Shown here in pieces: positions 16,681-28,298 of a stretch of 50,317 bases of DNA. The notes beneath the pieces are model-generated. The model saw nothing but the letters and a program-made list of their open reading frames with translations. It made no database searches and was not told where the DNA came from. Each line of letters begins with the position of its first letter. The stretch's first letter is position 1. Origin of the DNA: Balneolia bacterium (lineage in GTDB: Bacteria > Bacteroidota > Rhodothermia > Balneolales > Cyclonatronaceae); NCBI GenBank assembly GCA_022565795.1, contig JAIUMA010000018.1, positions 1-50,317 of the forward strand. The letters run 5' to 3'. The translations under genes were made by a program, and so were the position numbers.

Positions 16681-18417
16681 CTAGTTTGTGTGTGTAGCAT
16701 TTTCTGATGATTTCTCAGCGTCTGCCAGTATTTCGCTGTGATAATATTTTAAAGCGTCCTCTATATCGAGGAAGAAGCTCTGATCTTCCATGGTTCCAGG
16801 AATGCCGCACTTTTGGAGTTTATCACGAACGGGCCAGTGAATACCGGCTATCACGAAATGAATGCGACGCTCTTTGAGATTCCCGATTACCTTGCGAAGC
16901 ACGTGCATACCCGTAGAGTCGATGTCGTTAATTGATGATGCGTCCAGAATTACAAGACGAAGCGCATCACCATGTTCAGACATTCGGTCTTCGAGGGTTT
17001 GCTCGAAATGTTCGGTGTTGGCAAAGTAGAGGACAGCATCAAAACGGTAAATGAGCACGTCTTTGCTGGTTACCGCATCAGGATAGCGGTTGATGTTCCG
17101 GAAAATGCGGCTGTCGCCAATACGACCAACTTCTGCAGTATGTGGCCGGGCACTGTTGAAGGTGACCATCACAACAGATAAGACCACGCCGGCTATAATA
17201 CCCTGCTCAATACCTGCAAAGAGCGTCACGAAAAAGGTGATGCCCAGAAGCACCAGATCTTTTCTGTCGTTTCTCCAGAGGAATCCGATTTCTTTGTAGT
17301 CAAAAAGCGAAACGACCGCAAGTATAATGATGGCCGCCAGGATTGCCATTGGCAGATAATAGAACAGCGGCGTGAGAAACAAGAGCGTTGCGGCAACCAA
17401 AAGCGCACTGATAACTGAAGACATAGTTGTGCGTCCGCCTGATTGAGCATTTACGGCCGTGCGGGAGAAGCCGCCCGTTGTAGGAAAAGCCTGGAAAAAT
17501 GATCCGGCAAGGTTGGCTGCTCCCAAACCTATAAGCTCCTGGTTGGCATCAATTTTATACCCTTTTTTAGTCGCAATGGCTTTGGCAACGGCAATAGACT
17601 CCATAAAACTAATGAAGGAAATGGCAAGAATCGTAGGCCAGAGGAGTGTAATGTCGCTAAGGGAGACGGCAACAGTTTCAAAAACGGGGAGTCCCGATGG
17701 AATCTCTCCAATAATGCGAAGACCACGGTCCTCAAGGTTGAACAGCCATGCGGCCATAATTCCGAGAACTACTACCGTAATGGCTGCTGGCACGGCAGGG
17801 CGTATTTTTTTGATAATGAGCATCAGAGCGATAGCTCCGAGTCCGGTTGCTGCCGCCGGTATATTGATGTCGCTGAAATTTGAGAAAAGCACAGCAACGA
17901 TTTCATATACGGCACTGTCGCGGGGGATGGCTATACCAAAGAGATTTCCAATCTGGCTGGCACCAATAATAATCGCGGCTGCTGAAACGAAGCCGCTAAG
18001 CACGGGATGAGATAAAAAGTTTACGAGGAATCCGCCTTTGAGCAGACCCATGAGAAGCTGTACCACACCTACTGAAAAAGCGGTAAGGATGGCAAGCTGT
18101 ATGAAGCGGTCAGTGCCCGGTTCGGCATGTTCACTAACACCGGCAAGTACCAGCAGCGACAGCAATGCTACAGGACCAAATCCAAGATGGCGCGAGGTTC
18201 CAAGCCCGGCATAAATAAAAAGAGGTACGAGTGAAGCATAAAGTCCGTAAACGGGGGGGAGGCCTGCAAGAACGGCATATGCCATGCCCTGTGGAATCAG
18301 CATCACGCCAACGGTCAGGCCGGCGTTTAAGTCACCTCTGAAATCATCTTTGCTGTACCGGGTAATCCAGTCGAGCATTGGAATGTAGCGTTTCAATATG
18401 GAGGATTGCTGTTTCAA
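16681..18417 (-). CDS. SulP family anion transporter with STAS domain
   Basis: A 578-residue SLC26/SulP transporter. The N-terminal block MLIPQGMAYAVLAGLPPVYGLYASLVPLF is the diagnostic SulP motif, about a dozen membrane segments follow to residue 410, and the cytoplasmic STAS domain (residues about 430-560) contains LVILDASSINDIDSTGMHVL. Members carry sulfate, bicarbonate or other anions. Its position between persulfide dioxygenase and SLC13 genes points to sulfate or sulfite. A terminator lies upstream (18522-18566), so this gene may also have its own promoter in the 18418-18520 gap. Confidence 0.92.
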   Translation of the reverse strand: MKQQSSILKRYIPMLDWITRYSKDDFRGDLNAGLTVGVMLIPQGMAYAVLAGLPPVYGLYASLVPLFIYAGLGTSRHLGFGPVALLSLLVLAGVSEHAEPGTDRFIQLAILTAFSVGVVQLLMGLLKGGFLVNFLSHPVLSGFVSAAAIIIGASQIGNLFGIAIPRDSAVYEIVAVLFSNFSDINIPAAATGLGAIALMLIIKKIRPAVPAAITVVVLGIMAAWLFNLEDRGLRIIGEIPSGLPVFETVAVSLSDITLLWPTILAISFISFMESIAVAKAIATKKGYKIDANQELIGLGAANLAGSFFQAFPTTGGFSRTAVNAQSGGRTTMSSVISALLVAATLLFLTPLFYYLPMAILAAIIILAVVSLFDYKEIGFLWRNDRKDLVLLGITFFVTLFAGIEQGIIAGVVLSVVMVTFNSARPHTAEVGRIGDSRIFRNINRYPDAVTSKDVLIYRFDAVLYFANTEHFEQTLEDRMSEHGDALRLVILDASSINDIDSTGMHVLRKVIGNLKERRIHFVIAGIHWPVRDKLQKCGIPGTMEDQSFFLDIEDALKYYHSEILADAEKSSENATHTN

Positions 18418-18521
18418 GGGTTGTGGTAGTTCCTATAAGGTGGGTTTTGCGTAAGCAGGTGGTGGTTAGATTCAGATCTGTTGAAATTCAGAAGGCAGGC
18501 AAAGCTGCAGGCGGGAAGAGT

Positions 18522-18566
18522 TAAAAAAAAGAGGGCCGGCCTGCCTGCAAGCCTGACCAGCCCTCT
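18522..18566 (-). terminator. Terminator between the dioxygenase and SulP genes
   Basis: On the minus strand AAGAGGGCTGG pairs with CCGGCCCTCTT (one G-U), followed by eight T residues; it lies 40 bases after the dioxygenase stop. It could separate an upstream detoxification unit from the transporters or allow partial read-through. Confidence 0.78.
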
Positions 18567-18605
18567 TGTTATCTATCGTTTGAAACTTGAGATCACCAGA
18601 AGTGA

Positions 18606-20024
18606 TTAAGCTTCAGCTTTTTGGGTCATGTACTGTGTGAACTCATCATCCACGAGTACTACATCATGACCTTCACGCTTCAGGTATGCGCTCGCAACCG
18701 CAGAGCGTCCACCGGACATACAGTGTACAAGATACTTGCTTCCCTGAGGAATTTCGTCCTTGCGGTTAAACAGACGCGTATGGGCATAGTTAAGCGCTCC
18801 GTCGAAAGAACGTTCGCTGAACTCGCTGCCTTTACGCACGTCGAGGATTTTGTAATCGCTCTGCTGAGCTCTTTTTTCCATCTCTTCGAAATCGATGGTC
18901 TCGAGAGTATCCATTTTCCCGCCCTGATTTTTGAACAGGCGCAAATCAGCTGGAGTGATGAAGCCTTCGATGTTGTCTAGTCCGATACGGATGAGGTCAG
19001 TTACCGCTTCTTTAACGCGGTGCTCTTCTACAACCAGGTAGATTTTCTCATCTTCATCCACATACGAACCGGCAACAGTGTTGAACTGCTTGTTGAGCGG
19101 GGAAAGCAGCGAGCCGGGAATGTGGCCTGCAGCAAACTGATCGCGCTCACGGGTATCGATGATTGCAACGTCTTTACCTTTTTCGGCCAGCTTCATAATC
19201 TCACCGATGTTGAGCTGCTTTGGATTTGGGAGACCTTTCAGAAGCTTAGGGCCAATTTTGTTATCACGCTTCATGCGGGCAAAGTACATTGGCGGCTCAG
19301 GCTGACCTTCGAGGATGAACTTCACAAAGTTGTCTTCGGAAGAGGCAGACTTCAGAGAGTTGTTGAAACGAAGCTCGTAGCCAACGGTAGTTTCAGGAAT
19401 GGCGCCAAGTGCTTTACCACAGGCAGAACCTGCACCGTGTCCGGGCCAGATCTGAATGTACTCAGGAAGTCCTTTGAACTCTTCTACGGTTTTGTAGAGC
19501 GTACGGGCAGATGGTTCCATTACGTTTTCTTGTCCGGCAGCTGACTCAAGAAGATCAGGACGACCTACGTCGCCTACGAATACAAAGTCGCCGGTTGCGA
19601 CACCGATTGGTACGTCTGCTGCGGCTCCGTCGGTAACGAAGTAGCTAAGGTGCTCAGGCGTGTGGCCGGGTGTATGCCACGCTTTAATGGTGATGTTACC
19701 AAGCTTGATTTCATCATTGTTCTTTAGCAGCTCGTAGTCGTAGCTGCTGCCCATGAGCCACTCATACTTCCAGTCGGCATCACCTTCATCAGAACCGTAC
19801 ACTTTAACGCCGCGCTCGGCGAACTCACGAAGGCCTGAAATGTAGTCGGCGTGAATGTGGGTATCCAGCGCCATGGTGATTTTGAGGTTCTCTTTGGTAG
19901 CAGCCTGAATGTACTGATCGATGTCGCGCATCGGGTCAATTACGATAGCTTCGCCAAGAGCCTGGCAGCCGATCAGGTAGGAGTACTGTGCGAGTTTTTC
20001 ATCAAAGAATTGCTTGTAATACAT
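18606..20024 (-). CDS. MBL-fold persulfide dioxygenase with two rhodanese domains
   Basis: A mono-iron dioxygenase of the ETHE1 type fused to rhodanese domains, oxidising persulfides to sulfite. Metal ligands are H56-I-H58-A-D60, the HTPGHTPEH segment and FVGDVGRPDLL, plus IWPGHGAGSACGK. The first rhodanese domain (about 280-360) opens with VAIIDTRERDQFAAGHIPG but has VVEEHRV where the catalytic cysteine should be, so it is inactive. The second (about 375-472) has Cys435 in LVHCMSGGRSAVA and should be active. CstB and similar proteins show comparable fusions. It lies 56 bases after the DUF6691 gene. Confidence 0.92.
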   Translation of the reverse strand: MYYKQFFDEKLAQYSYLIGCQALGEAIVIDPMRDIDQYIQAATKENLKITMALDTHIHADYISGLREFAERGVKVYGSDEGDADWKYEWLMGSSYDYELLKNNDEIKLGNITIKAWHTPGHTPEHLSYFVTDGAAADVPIGVATGDFVFVGDVGRPDLLESAAGQENVMEPSARTLYKTVEEFKGLPEYIQIWPGHGAGSACGKALGAIPETTVGYELRFNNSLKSASSEDNFVKFILEGQPEPPMYFARMKRDNKIGPKLLKGLPNPKQLNIGEIMKLAEKGKDVAIIDTRERDQFAAGHIPGSLLSPLNKQFNTVAGSYVDEDEKIYLVVEEHRVKEAVTDLIRIGLDNIEGFITPADLRLFKNQGGKMDTLETIDFEEMEKRAQQSDYKILDVRKGSEFSERSFDGALNYAHTRLFNRKDEIPQGSKYLVHCMSGGRSAVASAYLKREGHDVVLVDDEFTQYMTQKAEA

Positions 20025-20080
20025 GGTGTTTCTCCGTTATTGGATGGTTTTTTGTTTGTTTAAAATCTTTAGGTGCACTC

Positions 20081-20509
20081 TTAATGAGGCAGTTTGGTTC
20101 TTAGGGCGCCGTAGGTCCAGGTGCCGGCTAAGGCAGCAAGAATAGGCACGATGATGATAGTGATGCCGCTGCCGAGCAGGGCAAACATCGGTCCGGGGCA
20201 GGCGCCAAGAAGGGCCCAGCCGAGACCGAACATACTTCCGCCAACGATGTAGCGGGTAACCTGTTTAGGATCCTTAGGCGGGATTGTAATAATGTTGCCC
20301 TCAAGGTCCTTTACGTTTTTGCGCTTAATAATCTGTACAGAGATGAGGCCTACGAATATGGCAAGGCCGATAATGCCGTACATATGAAACGAGTCGAAGC
20401 GAAACATCTCCTGAATACGGAACCAGGATACTACTTCAGATTTCATGAGAACAAAACCGAAGAGTGTTCCGGCGCTCAGGTATTTTAAAAAGTCTTTTGC
20501 TGATATCAT
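20081..20509 (-). CDS. YeeE/YedE-like half-transporter (DUF6691 type)
   Basis: A 142-residue protein with about four membrane segments. The motif GWALLGACPGPMFALLGSG holds the conserved cysteine thought to relay thiosulfate or persulfide sulfur in the YeeE/YedE (TsuA) family. It starts 13 bases downstream of the other half and the two probably form one heteromeric channel. The sequence of genes suggests it feeds sulfur to the dioxygenase next to it. Confidence 0.88.
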   Translation of the reverse strand: MISAKDFLKYLSAGTLFGFVLMKSEVVSWFRIQEMFRFDSFHMYGIIGLAIFVGLISVQIIKRKNVKDLEGNIITIPPKDPKQVTRYIVGGSMFGLGWALLGACPGPMFALLGSGITIIIVPILAALAGTWTYGALRTKLPH

Positions 20510-20522
20510 TGTGAAAAGCTGT

Positions 20523-21083
20523 TTAGAGAATGATTGGGTAGATGAACCAGGTCATGAGCAGACCGCCGATAAAGAAGCCGATTACGGCAATCAGTGAGGC
20601 AAGCTGCAGATCCGAAAGACCGGAAATAGCGTGCCCGGATGTACAGCCGCCGGCATATCGTGCGCCGAAGCCAACCAGGAATCCGCCAAGTACGAGAACG
20701 ATTAGACCGGTTCCGCTTCCCAGTACTTCCCATGTAAATAGTTCGGCAGGAACAAAGCCGGTGAAGTCGGTTATTCCGAGCTCGCGCAGATCATTAATAG
20801 TAGAGGCCGCAAGCTGGATGGGTTCAGGGTTGGCAAAGATATACCCGCCCAGGAAGCCGCCGAAAACCACACCAATTAGAAAAGTGAGGTTCCAGGCGCC
20901 GTTTTTCTTCCAGTCGTAGTTGAAGAATTCAACGTTACCAATGTTGCAGGCAGCGCAGGCGTGTCTGAGGTTTTCAGAAATACCGAACATCTTTCCACCC
21001 ATAATTAATAGCATTGGCACGGTAAGGCCGACAATCGGTCCGGCTATGTACCAGGGCCAGGGCTGTGTTAAAAGATCGAACAT
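20523..21083 (-). CDS. YeeE/YedE-family sulfur transporter subunit
   Basis: A 186-residue membrane protein with about five helices. The start at 21083 (MFDLLTQPWPWYIAGPIVGL) is preferred over an open extension to 21143, because the extra 20 residues are polar and lie in the leader near the promoter. Conserved cysteines are in LRHACAACNIG and in GARYAGGCTSGHAISG; both motifs occur in thiosulfate/sulfur uptake proteins of the YeeE/YedE group. First gene of the sulfur operon, transcribed from the promoter at 21141-21171. Confidence 0.88.
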   Translation of the reverse strand: MFDLLTQPWPWYIAGPIVGLTVPMLLIMGGKMFGISENLRHACAACNIGNVEFFNYDWKKNGAWNLTFLIGVVFGGFLGGYIFANPEPIQLAASTINDLRELGITDFTGFVPAELFTWEVLGSGTGLIVLVLGGFLVGFGARYAGGCTSGHAISGLSDLQLASLIAVIGFFIGGLLMTWFIYPIIL

Positions 21084-21140
21084 AATCAAAAATTGTTTAT
21101 TTGTGTGGTTGGTTAACTGACTTGTTTTTGTTTTCTGACC

Positions 21141-21171
21141 CAAATATAAAGCTGATATTACTACTTGTCAA
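21141..21171 (-). promoter_or_regulatory. Promoter of the sulfur operon
   Basis: On the minus strand TTGACA (21166-21171) and TATATTTG (21141-21148) are separated by 17 bases, a close match to the Bacteroidota TTG / TAnnTTTG promoter. The -35 hexamer is inside the palindrome at 21163-21178. Confidence 0.75.
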
Positions 21172-23469: not shown

Positions 23470-23689
23470 AAGGCGAACTTAAGGTTAAGGTTAAAGTATC
23501 GGTATAACCAATATATAAAAAAATAGCAGTGACTCACCGGATTGTACGCGTATGTGTTAGGGATTCATCATACACGTTGTTTTACGTTCCTTACAGGTTT
23601 TAAAAACTCATGGCTGGTTATCCCGTGTTAGATTCGTTATAATATTGAAATACAATTATTTAAAGCCTGAAGTGAGATATAATTTTATA

Positions 23690-23788
23690 ATGAAACTGAA
23701 GCACAGGAAATGTGCTGAGTCTTTGGGTAAGGGAAGGCTTAAATCAGTCCTTCCAAGAGTGGTAATGTTCATCAAAAAAATATTTTAG
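23690..23788 (+). CDS. Possible 32-aa basic leader peptide or small ORF
   Basis: ATG at 23690 opens 32 codons and stops at 23786-23788, two bases before the ATG of the ATP-grasp gene. The product is strongly basic (about ten Lys/Arg/His), has one Cys (residue 8) and ends in a hydrophobic stretch RVVMFIKKIF. No ribosome-binding site is obvious. It may be a leader peptide for translational coupling, a precursor peptide for the downstream enzymes, or chance; the two hairpins at 23701-23754 fall inside it, which weakens the coding reading. Confidence 0.3.
   Translation: MKLKHRKCAESLGKGRLKSVLPRVVMFIKKIF
23701..23754 (+). promoter_or_regulatory. Two-hairpin leader of the ATP-grasp operon
   Basis: GCACA-ggaaa-TGTGC (23701-23715) and GGAAGG-11 nt-CCTTCC (23732-23754) lie 37-90 bases before the ATP-grasp start. 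No T-run follows, so this is not a terminator. I could not match it to a known riboswitch class. The rest of the 320-base gap from 23470 holds an A/T-rich promoter-like region (TTATAATATTG near 23638). Confidence 0.4.
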
Positions 23789-23790
23789 AT

Positions 23791-25017
23791 ATGAGTAGTA
23801 AGGTAGCCCTGTTAGGCTGGAGTTTGCCAGCAATTGAAAGTGTACAGAAAATGAATAAGCCCTATGTGGTGGTTAGTTTTCCTGACTTTGAGCCGTATGC
23901 CAAAGAAAACGGAATCCCTTTCGTCTCATGGAAGTTTGACGACTGGAATGAAAAACACAATGCGCTGCAGCTCAAAGAGCTTTTAGATGCGGAGGGAGCT
24001 GAATACGCGGTTGCTTTGTACGAAGAAACGGTGGAATGGGCCGGAGCGCTGAACTCGCTCTATCGCGATGACCCACGTGTTTTAAACCGCGCCTATCTGT
24101 TCCGAAACAAATCTCTGATGAAGCGGAAAGCGATGCTGGCTGGTTTGCGCGTCGGATATTTTGAAGAGGTGTATAAAAAGGCAGATGTCGTAAAGTTTAT
24201 GGACCGTCTGAACGAAGCTAATCTTCAATTAGAAGGAGAAGAAGACGCATGGGTACACCTTAAGCCGTTTAGCGCGGCAGGAACCGTCGGGCATAAATTG
24301 CTGCGCAGTAAGCAGGATATAGACGATCGTGTTGAGGATGAAGACTTCCCGTGTATGGTTGAAAGCCACCTGCCGGGTAAAGAATTTTCCTGTGAAGCCT
24401 TCATTCACGACGGCAAAATCCGTTTTCTTAATATCACCGAGTATGTAAAGCTTGGCTTTTCCAACTTTATTCCTTGTGGTGAAGAACTTCAGTCCAAGCG
24501 TCCTCTTATCGCTGAGGCCATGCAGAAACTGGTCGATTCATTTGGAATCAAATACGGCGTTATTCATCCGGAATGGTTCCTTACGGAAGACAACACAATC
24601 AGTTTTGGTGAGGTAGCCAGTCGTATCCCGGGTGGACATATTTTTGAGCTCATTCAGTCTGCCTATGGTTTTGATGCCATTCAGGCACTTATTCTGGTGA
24701 ATGATCCGAAGGTCACCCAGGAAGAAATCGATACCTTTTTCCCGAAATCGGAAGCCGATTTTCAAACCTATGCCGGAAGCGTGATGGTATATCCGAAGCC
24801 GGGTTACATTAAGCGTCTGCAAATACCCGACGAGCTCAAGGAAGATCCATTCTTTAATCATCATACGCTTTATGAGCCGGTTGAGCATAAAGTTTCGAAC
24901 ACCCGTGAAGGATTTGGCAATCACTACGGTACGGTTTTCTTTAAAGGTGATGATCCCGTTCGTATGAAAGAGCTCCTCACCCATTATCAGGATGCTGATT
25001 TTTACGGAAGAGACTAG
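23791..25017 (+). CDS. ATP-grasp carboxylate-amine ligase-like protein
   Basis: A 408-residue ATP-grasp enzyme, which joins a carboxylate (through an acylphosphate) to an amine or thiol. The N-terminal pre-grasp domain (1-110) starts KVALLGWSLPAIESVQK; nucleotide-binding features are VHLKPFSAAGTVG (Lys158), VESHLPGKEFSCEAF (Glu191/Glu198 region) and the magnesium site HPEWFLTEDNTISFGEVASRIPGG (Glu274, Arg278). The layout resembles dipeptide-forming L-amino acid ligases more than D-Ala-D-Ala ligase. First gene of a likely operon with the 661-aa protein (71-base gap) and a racemase-like gene. Substrate unknown. Confidence 0.8.
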   Translation: MSSKVALLGWSLPAIESVQKMNKPYVVVSFPDFEPYAKENGIPFVSWKFDDWNEKHNALQLKELLDAEGAEYAVALYEETVEWAGALNSLYRDDPRVLNRAYLFRNKSLMKRKAMLAGLRVGYFEEVYKKADVVKFMDRLNEANLQLEGEEDAWVHLKPFSAAGTVGHKLLRSKQDIDDRVEDEDFPCMVESHLPGKEFSCEAFIHDGKIRFLNITEYVKLGFSNFIPCGEELQSKRPLIAEAMQKLVDSFGIKYGVIHPEWFLTEDNTISFGEVASRIPGGHIFELIQSAYGFDAIQALILVNDPKVTQEEIDTFFPKSEADFQTYAGSVMVYPKPGYIKRLQIPDELKEDPFFNHHTLYEPVEHKVSNTREGFGNHYGTVFFKGDDPVRMKELLTHYQDADFYGRD

Positions 25018-25088
25018 CGTAAATCAGCTGTATTTTATGTTCGACTTTCATATTTAATCCGGAAAACATCATTCAAAAAACGAAATCA

Positions 25089-27074
25089 TTGCCTGAACTA
25101 TCAGACAAAATGAAACAGAACCTGAGCGATGCGCTCAGCGAACTATCCGATTCAATGCCTGTACTCAGGCAGGAAAAGGTGAAAAAAGTACTCAGCCTAG
25201 CCGATCAGCTTACGGATACTCAGGAAGGAATTGAGCTACTTTATGAAGCGATACCTAAGCTGCATGAGGCCGGTGCCTTCTCCGAAAGTATGTGGGAAAA
25301 TCCGGAAAAACTTGTTCCGGCACTGGTCGGAGGTACGCTTAAAGCCGGCGGCCAGACCACCGTCATGGAGATTATGAGCGAACTTCGTATGCTTGCCATA
25401 AGTGAAAAGCGTATTAAAGTGAGCAACTTCTCTGATAAGCTCGCAAGCAGATTTCTGCGGTTTGTAATTGTAGCAAATCTGGATTTGATTTTTCCGGATG
25501 CCTCCGAAGAGTTAAGGGAACTCGACACGGTCACCACCCGTAAAATTACAGGTCTGTTTTCTTTTCTGAAGGAGTTTCTCCCGCTTGAAACCATTCGGGA
25601 AGACCTTGCAGAAGAAATTGATCAGATATGCCTGCAGCGTCCTGTTATCACTGAAAGAGCGCTTCATATTTTGAGTACGGTTCGTAACGAGCTAAAGCTG
25701 GATAATACTCATAAGGCTGACCGCAAACTGCTTAAATATGTTAACGCAGCATTTTCACCTACGGAGAAGTCGCGTTCATCTGATCCTGAAGCATATGCGG
25801 CATATTTAGAAAATGCCGATGAGGAAGAGCTTCATGCTGAGTCCGGAGCCATAGGATCAAGCATGCGGGATACCGGACTCTCATCCGAATATCACGCTGT
25901 GTTTCTTCGTAATGTGAGAAACCGCCCGGTATTGCTAAAAAGGGCTTTGGGTCTTGACAGCAGCGGCCGGGCCGAGCTGGATAAACACCGTGAGTTTGTA
26001 GCCAGGTTGATTGAAGAAGTCATTCATCCGGAAACCAGCCGTTCATGCTATGGTCTTGCACGGTTTCTTGAGCGGGCGCTGCTTTCGCATCAGCCGGTGA
26101 AAAGCGGACTTGAGCGCCTTCTCACGACAACGCTTCATCCTGAAGTAAGCAAGAATTTGCGGATATCACGACCTAAAGCGAACCTGAAACCGGAACAGCT
26201 TTTAGTTGCCGAATGCCTCGGTATTCTGGGGCAGCCGCTGGGTATTGGTCAGGGCTGGAATCCTACCTGCCAGTCGGCAAGGGGAATCAGCTTGTGGAGC
26301 AGGCATGCACCTGGCAAACTACTCAGGCTTATTGAAACAGCGGCGAAGACAAATAATCTAACGATGCGCTTCGAAGCTTATCTGCTTTCTTCATCCGAGC
26401 TTTCGGCAGGACTCGCCAAAAACTTCGACTACAACCTGGATGCCGTTTCCGTTGTTCTGGTGCCTCATCTTGATAAAATCTACAACCGCATGATGGAGCT
26501 GGCCGCACTTCGCGGGGAAGATCCGCACAAGTGGGTTAACCCGGCAATGTATGGCCACTGGATTCCGGTTGGGTTCATTTCAGCGTACGACGACGCTTCG
26601 CACTCCATTAAGGATTATGAAAAGTTTCTCAGAACATTCTATATAACGCATCATCCCGGATACAACGGCGGTCATGATTTAGTCTACCCGAATCCGGTGG
26701 GTATTTTTCTTACCGGAGCAAACGGTGCGCTGCTTGGGTTCCATGCCGTTTCAATTCTGAGAGTTGCCAAATATGAAAATGAGTACAGAATCTATTTCCT
26801 GAATCCGAATAATGAAGGTCGCCAGCAATGGCAGTCGGATATCCGGCCTACCGTATCCGGACACGGAGAACGGGTCGGAGAATCTTCGCTGCCGTTTTTC
26901 CAGTTTGCATCACGATTGTATGCGTTTCATTTCAATCCAAGCGATATGAAAGATCTCAACGAGGTGCGTAAGGAAGAAATTGATCAGGTAGCAGAAATTG
27001 CTAAAAATAGCTGGGGAGTATCCTATACCTGGACAGCCGGCACCGAACTTGGTTTAACCTCTCTTTTGCACTAA
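25089..27074 (+). CDS. Uncharacterised 661-aa protein with papain-like Cys/His/Asn signature
   Basis: I do not recognise the family. Residues 1-370 are almost all helical-looking and contain no signal peptide or membrane segment. The C-terminal 280 residues carry GWNPTCQSARGISLW (Cys394), ALLGFHAVSILRVAK (His552) and YRIYFLNPNNEGRQ (Asn572), in the order and context of papain-fold peptidases and transglutaminase-like enzymes (Cys at a helix start, His in a G-x-HAV strand, Asn/Asp after an aromatic strand). The frame opens with TTG at 25089; the ATG at 25110 would remove seven residues. It sits between an ATP-grasp ligase and a racemase-like gene. A peptidase or acyltransferase role is an inference from motif order only. 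Confidence 0.75.
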   Translation: MPELSDKMKQNLSDALSELSDSMPVLRQEKVKKVLSLADQLTDTQEGIELLYEAIPKLHEAGAFSESMWENPEKLVPALVGGTLKAGGQTTVMEIMSELRMLAISEKRIKVSNFSDKLASRFLRFVIVANLDLIFPDASEELRELDTVTTRKITGLFSFLKEFLPLETIREDLAEEIDQICLQRPVITERALHILSTVRNELKLDNTHKADRKLLKYVNAAFSPTEKSRSSDPEAYAAYLENADEEELHAESGAIGSSMRDTGLSSEYHAVFLRNVRNRPVLLKRALGLDSSGRAELDKHREFVARLIEEVIHPETSRSCYGLARFLERALLSHQPVKSGLERLLTTTLHPEVSKNLRISRPKANLKPEQLLVAECLGILGQPLGIGQGWNPTCQSARGISLWSRHAPGKLLRLIETAAKTNNLTMRFEAYLLSSSELSAGLAKNFDYNLDAVSVVLVPHLDKIYNRMMELAALRGEDPHKWVNPAMYGHWIPVGFISAYDDASHSIKDYEKFLRTFYITHHPGYNGGHDLVYPNPVGIFLTGANGALLGFHAVSILRVAKYENEYRIYFLNPNNEGRQQWQSDIRPTVSGHGERVGESSLPFFQFASRLYAFHFNPSDMKDLNEVRKEEIDQVAEIAKNSWGVSYTWTAGTELGLTSLLH

Positions 27075-27137
27075 AGTTCGAAGCCGAATACACGAACAGG
27101 ACTACCTAAGGAAAAATGAATTGAAGGAAAACATAAA

Positions 27138-28298
27138 ATGGTCAAACACTCATCCCGAATTGAACTTAGCCAGTCGGCTTTAAAGACGAATTTTAAATTT
27201 ATCAGAAACAAGATTGGTGAGAAGCCGATTATCTCATCCGTTGTTAAGGCGAATGCATTCGGCCATGGAATAGATCCGTTCGTTTCTATGGCTGAAGACT
27301 GCGGTATTAACCATTTTGCCGTCGCCTCGAGTTATGAAGCCTGGGAAGTAATCCAGGCCAGAAAACGTCCCGAAAGCAAAGTGATGATAATGGGTATACT
27401 GTACGAATCGGACCTTGACTGGGTTATTAAAAACGGTGTTGAGTTCTTTGTGTATGATTTCAGAAGGCTGGAGCAGGCCAGAAATGCAGCTAAAAGGCTT
27501 GGCAAAAAAGCCATTATCCACCTCGAGGTTGAGACGGGCGGCAACCGAACTGGTTTAAGCGACAAAGAGCTGATGCCATCGCTGCGATTCCTCAAAAACA
27601 ATCAGGACTTTCTTCAGTTTGAAGGATTCTGCACACACTTTGCCGGTATTGAAAGTCTGGCAAATCAGTTTCGTGTGCAGCGCCAGCTCAAGAAGTTTAA
27701 TGAGCTTTATGCCAGAGTTAAAAAGTTTGGTTATCTTCCCAGATTAAAGCATACGGCCTGCTCTGCTGCCGCACTGGCGTTTCCTGAAACGGTGATGGAT
27801 CTCGTTCGGGTAGGAACGGCTCAGTTTGGTCTCTGGCCAAGTCCGGATATCTATAACCTTCATCTTATGGAAGCCAAAAAGGTGAAGGATGCGCCACTGA
27901 AGCGAATTCTTACCTGGAAGACAGACATCATGCATCTCAAAGAGATTAAGAAAGATGAGTTTGTCGGTTATGGAACCAGTTATCAGGCGCCACGGGATAT
28001 GCGCATTGCTGTTATACCGATTGGCTACAGCAACGGATATCCACGTTCGCTATCCAATAAAGGTCAGGTTTTGATAAACGGCAAGAAGGCTGCTGTTGTA
28101 GGGCTCATTAATATGAATGTATTTATGGTTGATGTAACTCATATTCGTGATGTGGAGCTCACAGACGATGTAACCCTTATTGGTCGTGAAAAGCACAATT
28201 CTATTACAATTAAATCATTTTCAGAGTTTACAAACGCTATTAACAACGAGCTGGTTAGCCGCTTGCCTTCTGCTGTGCCGCGAAAAAGAGTGCGTTAA
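27138..28298 (+). CDS. Alanine-racemase-like PLP enzyme
   Basis: A fold-type III PLP enzyme of the alanine racemase family, 386 residues. The PLP lysine is Lys37 in VVKANAFGHG, Arg137 in VETGGNRTGL should contact the cofactor or substrate, and the second catalytic base is Tyr282 in FVGYGTSYQA. In the C-terminal domain the usual C-M-D-Q loop reads N-M-N-V (325-328), which may alter substrate choice. No signal peptide. Last gene of the ATP-grasp operon, 63 bases after the papain-like gene. It could be a second alanine racemase or a racemase for another amino acid serving the ligase. Confidence 0.82.
   Translation: MVKHSSRIELSQSALKTNFKFIRNKIGEKPIISSVVKANAFGHGIDPFVSMAEDCGINHFAVASSYEAWEVIQARKRPESKVMIMGILYESDLDWVIKNGVEFFVYDFRRLEQARNAAKRLGKKAIIHLEVETGGNRTGLSDKELMPSLRFLKNNQDFLQFEGFCTHFAGIESLANQFRVQRQLKKFNELYARVKKFGYLPRLKHTACSAAALAFPETVMDLVRVGTAQFGLWPSPDIYNLHLMEAKKVKDAPLKRILTWKTDIMHLKEIKKDEFVGYGTSYQAPRDMRIAVIPIGYSNGYPRSLSNKGQVLINGKKAAVVGLINMNVFMVDVTHIRDVELTDDVTLIGREKHNSITIKSFSEFTNAINNELVSRLPSAVPRKRVR

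Follow-up and report, generated by a model that had tools for sequence, protein, structure and literature searches.

Do three adjacent genes in a 50,317-nucleotide stretch of DNA from a Balneolia bacterium (the whole stretch is termed the window), which encode an ATP-grasp ligase, a 661-residue protein (p661) and an alanine racemase-like enzyme, constitute a single pathway, and what would this pathway make? The genes and the regions between them are as follows.

23470..23790, + strand: intergenic region of 321 bases, from the divergent SDR gene to the trio (gene layout)
23791..25017, + strand: predicted ATP-grasp amide ligase, L-amino-acid-ligase-like, 408 aa, ATG start (ORF list and Pfam ATP-grasp_4)
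25018..25088, + strand: ligase-p661 gap, 71 bases, without a promoter-like or forward terminator-like match
25089..27074, + strand: p661, undescribed family, 661 aa, TTG start (ORF list)
27075..27137, + strand: p661-racemase gap, 63 bases, without a promoter-like or forward terminator-like match
27138..28298, + strand: predicted dedicated alanine racemase paralogue, 386 aa, ATG start (TIGR00492 and racemase tree)

The common orientation of the three genes and the two gap lengths given in the preliminary description agree exactly with the ORF list, in which all three genes are on the + strand. The trio had been placed from position 23690; the genes are right, but the first start codon is located about 100 bases further downstream, at 23791. 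The gaps were checked for promoters and terminators by a simple scan, with Bacteroidota promoters outside its coverage, and the operon promoter is likely to be located in the 321-base region upstream of the ligase gene. The flanking genes are ordinary according to Pfam and NCBIfam, with those for a GntR/UTRA regulator, a thioesterase and an SDR upstream and that for a hybrid histidine kinase downstream. None of the three trio proteins matches any anti-phage defence model of PADLOC. Proteins corresponding to each of the three reading frames are conserved in many other genomes, indicating that these are not chance ORFs. A signal peptide is not evident at the N-termini of the three proteins when these are read by eye, suggesting that the pathway is cytoplasmic. 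Elsewhere in the window, at 16681-21143, genes for a SulP-type transporter, a metallo-beta-lactamase/rhodanese protein and two YeeE/YedE-like proteins are recognized by eye, and this region is likely a sulfur-handling cluster unrelated to the trio.

The p661 protein is detected in 13 genomes by a protein search of 98 genomes including the window's own, and in 19 of 129 Balneolales genomes (about one in seven; three families and 11 of 39 genera) by a profile search. A scan of GTDB contigs finds 15 p661 loci, which derive from Balneolales, Balneolaceae, Balneolia, Rhodothermaceae or Bacteroidetes MAGs and from Fodinibius roseus. The racemase gene is located 3' of the p661 gene in every one of these loci, and the ATP-grasp gene is located 5' of it wherever the contig extends. 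The matching ATP-grasp gene is present in 18 of the 19 p661 genomes (E < 1e-190 or better); in the other genome (G002), the contig begins at p661, so that the upstream ligase position is cut off. It is present in none of the 110 Balneolales genomes without p661, which give just five weak partial matches (p 4e-21 by Fisher's test for the co-occurrence of the ligase and p661). Outside Balneolales, p661 is not found among 394 genomes sampled from the phylum, and no relative is found in viral contigs or phage records. Plasmid records contain a single relative, that of Halomonas. Other phyla were covered through plasmid, phage and viral records and one scan of GTDB contigs for close relatives.

The order and orientation of the three genes are constant wherever contigs allow. 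When the gene neighbours of 17 Balneolales loci and the Halomonas locus are compared all-against-all, the three trio families are the only ones to recur widely. The remaining neighbour families are each found in at most two of the 17 Balneolales loci, and the immediate neighbours differ by locus (ArgJ, gyrase A, CorA, LexA, ClpB, patatin, a methyltransferase and others). Thus, the trio is a conserved, self-contained three-gene cassette of Balneolales. Its conservation in related genomes, on which the preliminary description had made its proposal of a common pathway depend, is that of one unit across this order. The pairwise distances of the three proteins correlate (r = 0.87-0.93), and the mean identities among the copies are 76% for the ligase, 57% for p661 and 71% for the racemase. 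The trio copies group largely by host family in the racemase tree, suggesting that the cassette is old in Balneolales; frequent loss and movement within genomes are also probable. A 49-residue stretch of another genome (G033:C18:2411-2557) matches the N-terminus of the trio ligase, contains a stop codon, and may be a remnant of a decayed or lost cassette. In genome G001, the thioesterase/SDR pair is present without the cassette; the opposite flank is not syntenic, so that a clean empty site is not provided. Intergenic distances of 200-480 bases are found within the trio in some relatives (L016 and L056), and a single transcript is therefore not assured everywhere. In one locus (L022 8761-9852), a gene for a D-serine dehydratase-like PLP enzyme is located directly 3' of the trio racemase gene in the same orientation.

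The ATP-grasp ligase and alanine racemase-like assignments of the preliminary description are borne out by matches to the ATP-grasp_4 profile and to the Ala_racemase_N and Ala_racemase_C profiles respectively. The ligase gives 30.1 bits with Pfam ATP-grasp_4 against a cut-off of 27. When its AlphaFold2 model (mean pLDDT 76.6) is compared with the PDB by Foldseek, RizA (4wd3) is the best match with an E-value of 7.4e-20, and 3vot, 3vmm and 3wnz are also among the top six. The matches to RizA, BL00235 and BacD/YwfE are near full length, with E-values of 7e-20 to 2e-14 and TM-scores of about 0.65-0.70, although its identity to the closest relatives of solved structure is only about 17%. Three residues are invariant in the copies and are aligned with RizA residues by profile alignment.

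24571-24573, + strand: ligase E261, predicted catalytic/Mg residue
24610-24612, + strand: ligase E274, predicted catalytic/Mg residue
24622-24624, + strand: ligase R278, predicted catalytic/Mg residue

These Glu, Glu and Arg residues are predicted to form a C-terminal ATP/Mg site like that of L-amino-acid ligases. The model therefore points to an L-amino-acid (dipeptide) ligase-like amide-bond former, the activity of which is predicted. The ligase is not BacD itself, because it gives 13 bits against 850 with the model of alanine--anticapsin ligase (NF053745). It is not a D-Ala--D-Ala ligase either, because it gives 12 bits against 310 with the Ddl models and a better Ddl candidate is present elsewhere in the genome. 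This Ddl-like gene (G000:C42) gives 238 bits, just below the cut-off of 245.65; neither ddl nor murF is seen among the genes adjoining the trio, as had been noted previously. A cell-wall role of the trio is rejected, because a separate Ddl candidate and other racemases are present in the genome. As to a graspetide precursor, its gene would hardly fit into the 71- and 63-base gaps within the trio, and no ORF of at least 80 aa recurs beside the trio.

The p661 protein had been left unplaced in the preliminary description, and it indeed has no family in Pfam or NCBIfam; it also gives no match in PADLOC or PHROGs and no significant E-value against PDB sequences. It consists of a helical N-terminal half (about 1-380) and a conserved C-terminal half. 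Mean conservation is 34-59% over the first 360 residues and about 71-77% over residues 361-600. The conserved motifs are GQGxNPTCQSAR, HxWVNP, HPxYNG, G(F/W)HA(V/I) and NPNN. The Cys/His/Asn signature noted previously is invariant across the aligned copies, and is preceded by an invariant Gln.

26250-26252, + strand: p661 Q388, invariant, predicted catalytic
26268-26270, + strand: p661 C394, invariant, predicted catalytic
26742-26744, + strand: p661 H552, invariant, predicted catalytic
26802-26804, + strand: p661 N572, invariant, predicted catalytic

The order Gln388-x5-Cys394...His552...Asn572 is invariant in 18 aligned Balneolales copies and is kept in the Halomonas copy. The spacing of these residues is identical in all Balneolales copies checked, and the Halomonas copy contains one additional residue between His and Asn. 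Gln-x5-Cys is the spacing of papain. In the AlphaFold2 model of p661, His552 is located inside one strand and Asn572 just past the next strand, which is the order expected for clan CA. The mean pLDDT of this model is 76.8, but it is low over residues 384-406 and below 50 around C394. Foldseek gives no match with an E-value of 0.001 or less; weak matches to cathepsin B recur (probability 0.1-0.47), with the model being poor near C394. Thus, of the previous description of this protein as papain-like, the Gln/Cys/His/Asn order stands as one that fits clan CA, whereas the structure comparison is too weak to establish the fold. The protein is well supported as a cysteine enzyme with a predicted Gln/Cys/His/Asn site, likely has a papain fold, and looks like a transferase- or peptidase-type enzyme. 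It resembles the clan CA peptidases and transferases in the ordered Gln-x5-Cys...His...Asn residues, but differs from them in the 157 residues from Cys to His, in the large helical N-terminal half and in the lack of a significant sequence or structure match. It shows no profile similarity to Peptidase C39/C39_2: hhalign gives a probability of 0.9% against an alignment of Balneolales C39-type proteins, and Pfam gives no match. "Papain-like" and "ligase plus racemase" are supported as the most sensible readings of the trio.

The racemase contains both domains of the family (Ala_racemase_N and Ala_racemase_C; PF01168 and PF00842) and gives 276.6 bits with TIGR00492 against a cut-off of 168. R224 (+ strand) is invariant in the copies, and two further residues are invariant in 17 copies and are aligned with those of solved racemases.

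27246-27248, + strand: racemase K37, PLP lysine
27969-27971, + strand: racemase Y278, catalytic Tyr

The trio racemases form one clade with support of 96/95, separate from other alanine racemases, and in Balneolales are always encoded 3' of p661. In the tree, they are closest to a second Balneolales racemase (43-47% identity), which is found in genomes with and without the trio, and a third, more distant type is 25-29% identical to the trio racemase. Three PF00842 proteins are present in the trio genomes checked, the window's included, and one or two in genomes without the trio. Judging from these sequences, the trio racemase is a third, dedicated alanine racemase paralogue with intact catalytic residues, which probably arose by duplication of a local alanine racemase. 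Its substrate is predicted to be alanine, but could be serine or another small residue.

The trio is not complete in its single relative outside Balneolales. In Halomonas sp. PA16-9 (NZ_CP040452.1), the ligase (47% identical) and p661 (about 34-35% identical) are encoded by adjacent genes in the same order, but no racemase gene follows p661; the next gene reads by eye like TlyA. The sole alanine racemase gene of this record is located more than 500 kb away. The proposal of one pathway for all three genes is thus partly supported: they are a conserved unit in Balneolales but not in Halomonas, and the ligase/p661 pair is indicated as the core. With this single outside relative, it looks as if the pair came first and the racemase joined it in Balneolales, although the racemase may instead have been lost in Halomonas. 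The Halomonas p661 gene (L055 11980-14064) shifts frame near its 3' end, with the conserved FASRLY...SWG segment in another frame, and this may be due to a sequencing error or decay.

The following pathway may be proposed from the gene set, its co-inheritance and the conservation of its active sites, which are observed, and from knowledge of the families, on which the acyl-phosphate, D-Ala supply and acyl-enzyme steps are based. The racemase would provide the pathway of the trio, and not the cell wall, with a D-amino acid, which is most likely D-Ala formed from L-Ala. The ATP-grasp enzyme would convert a carboxylate to an acyl phosphate and then couple this to an amine, in the manner of dipeptide formation by RizA and BacD, and a D-Ala-containing dipeptide-like product would result. 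Cys394 of p661, together with His552, Asn572 and an oxyanion-stabilising Gln388, would form an acyl-enzyme on the ligase product or its precursor, and p661 would then transfer, cyclise or trim that compound. The trio probably makes a small D-amino-acid-containing compound. We give an even chance to the specific proposal that a self-contained cytoplasmic cassette makes a small amide-bonded, D-Ala-containing metabolite, for which the product and the p661 reaction are inferred. A wider reading, in which p661 founds a new clan-CA-type family and, with the dipeptide-ligase-like ATP-grasp enzyme, builds an undescribed D-amino-acid metabolite in halophiles, with the racemase recruited in one order, is possible but tentative. 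The product may serve as an osmolyte, antimetabolite or signal. Named hosts such as Fodinibius and Halomonas belong to halophilic genera; this hint of an osmolyte is weak, because most Balneolales genomes lack the cassette.

It is unlikely that the trio instead writes and erases a macromolecular tag, with the ligase adding (D-)amino acids to a protein or envelope component and p661 removing or transferring them. This reading is drawn by analogy, since coupling of an ATP-grasp enzyme with a peptidase is already known: RpsF is glutamylated by RimK and deglutamylated by RimB, and the rlo operon (RloABC) combines genes for an ATP-grasp enzyme, an aspartic protease and a transglutaminase that is inactive (PMC12239564). 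The trio is similar to these systems in that an ATP-grasp gene shares an operon with a gene of the peptidase or transglutaminase type (PMC12239564), and the large, helical N-terminal half of p661 could bind a protein. However, the trio ligase belongs to another ATP-grasp subfamily, with free-amino-acid dipeptide ligases and not RimK as its closest folds, and a racemase is present, while no gene for an aspartic protease or membrane transglutaminase recurs. No conserved target gene is located nearby, and the absence of the cassette from most close relatives argues against a core target.

It is quite improbable that the ligase and p661 produce an inhibitor of alanine racemase in the form of a bacilysin-like dipeptide, with the third racemase being an insensitive spare and not a biosynthetic enzyme. 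BacD-type ligases make antibiotic dipeptides, the genome has two alanine racemases besides that of the trio, the cassette is patchily distributed, and the Halomonas pair has no adjacent racemase, all as this reading would have it. Nevertheless, no exporter is conserved next to the trio, none of its members is like a warhead-forming enzyme, and the active site of the racemase looks ordinary. A catabolic or salvage route is very unlikely. In this route, p661 would be a peptidase that frees fragments containing D-Ala, L-Ala would be regained through the racemase, and a useful amide would be built anew by the ligase. The sister racemase adjoins M20 and M23 peptidases in other Balneolales, and the trio of L022 is followed by the gene for a D-serine dehydratase-like enzyme, but neither transporters nor peptidases are conserved alongside the trio, and an ATP-consuming ligase is unusual for a catabolic set.

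Returning to the biosynthetic reading, the trio ligase shares the ATP-grasp fold, the Glu/Glu/Arg residues and a size of about 400 aa with RizA (4wd3), BL00235 (3vot) and BacD/YwfE (3vmm/3wnz), but its partners are a cysteine enzyme and a racemase and not products of bacilysin or rhizocticin genes. Pairing of an ATP-grasp gene with a peptidase or transglutaminase gene is already known, whereas the ligase/p661/racemase combination and the p661 family match nothing in the databases and literature reached, in keeping with the previous suggestion that the trio is undescribed. The trio is not described in the literature on ATP-grasp enzymes with papain-like or racemase neighbours, although the 2009 amidoligase survey (Iyer et al.) may mention it. 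This compact and portable cassette is strictly conserved, yet its central enzyme, p661, is outside any described family. It is small enough to be expressed whole in a laboratory strain, so that its product can be sought directly. If the proposal is correct, a D-amino-acid dipeptide made outside the cell wall would add to the compatible solutes or antimetabolites of halophiles, or to the amide-bond chemistry of cysteine enzymes.

The sister racemase has neighbours of its own. In L060 443-5242 (G000:C56), in the same genome as the trio, the second racemase paralogue has nearby genes for a C39-like papain-fold protein and for a RimK-like ligase that carries an RLAN domain, an arrangement loosely resembling the trio. 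The C39-like family is found in many Balneolales, but not beside this racemase in the further genomes examined; this neighbourhood is not conserved and is therefore not a parallel trio. In L063-L066, L068 and L069, the sister racemase gene is accompanied by genes for a sodium:solute symporter, a GNAT protein, an Ala_racemase_N enzyme and M23 and M20 peptidases, and this set is a candidate for a separate D-amino-acid or peptide pathway.
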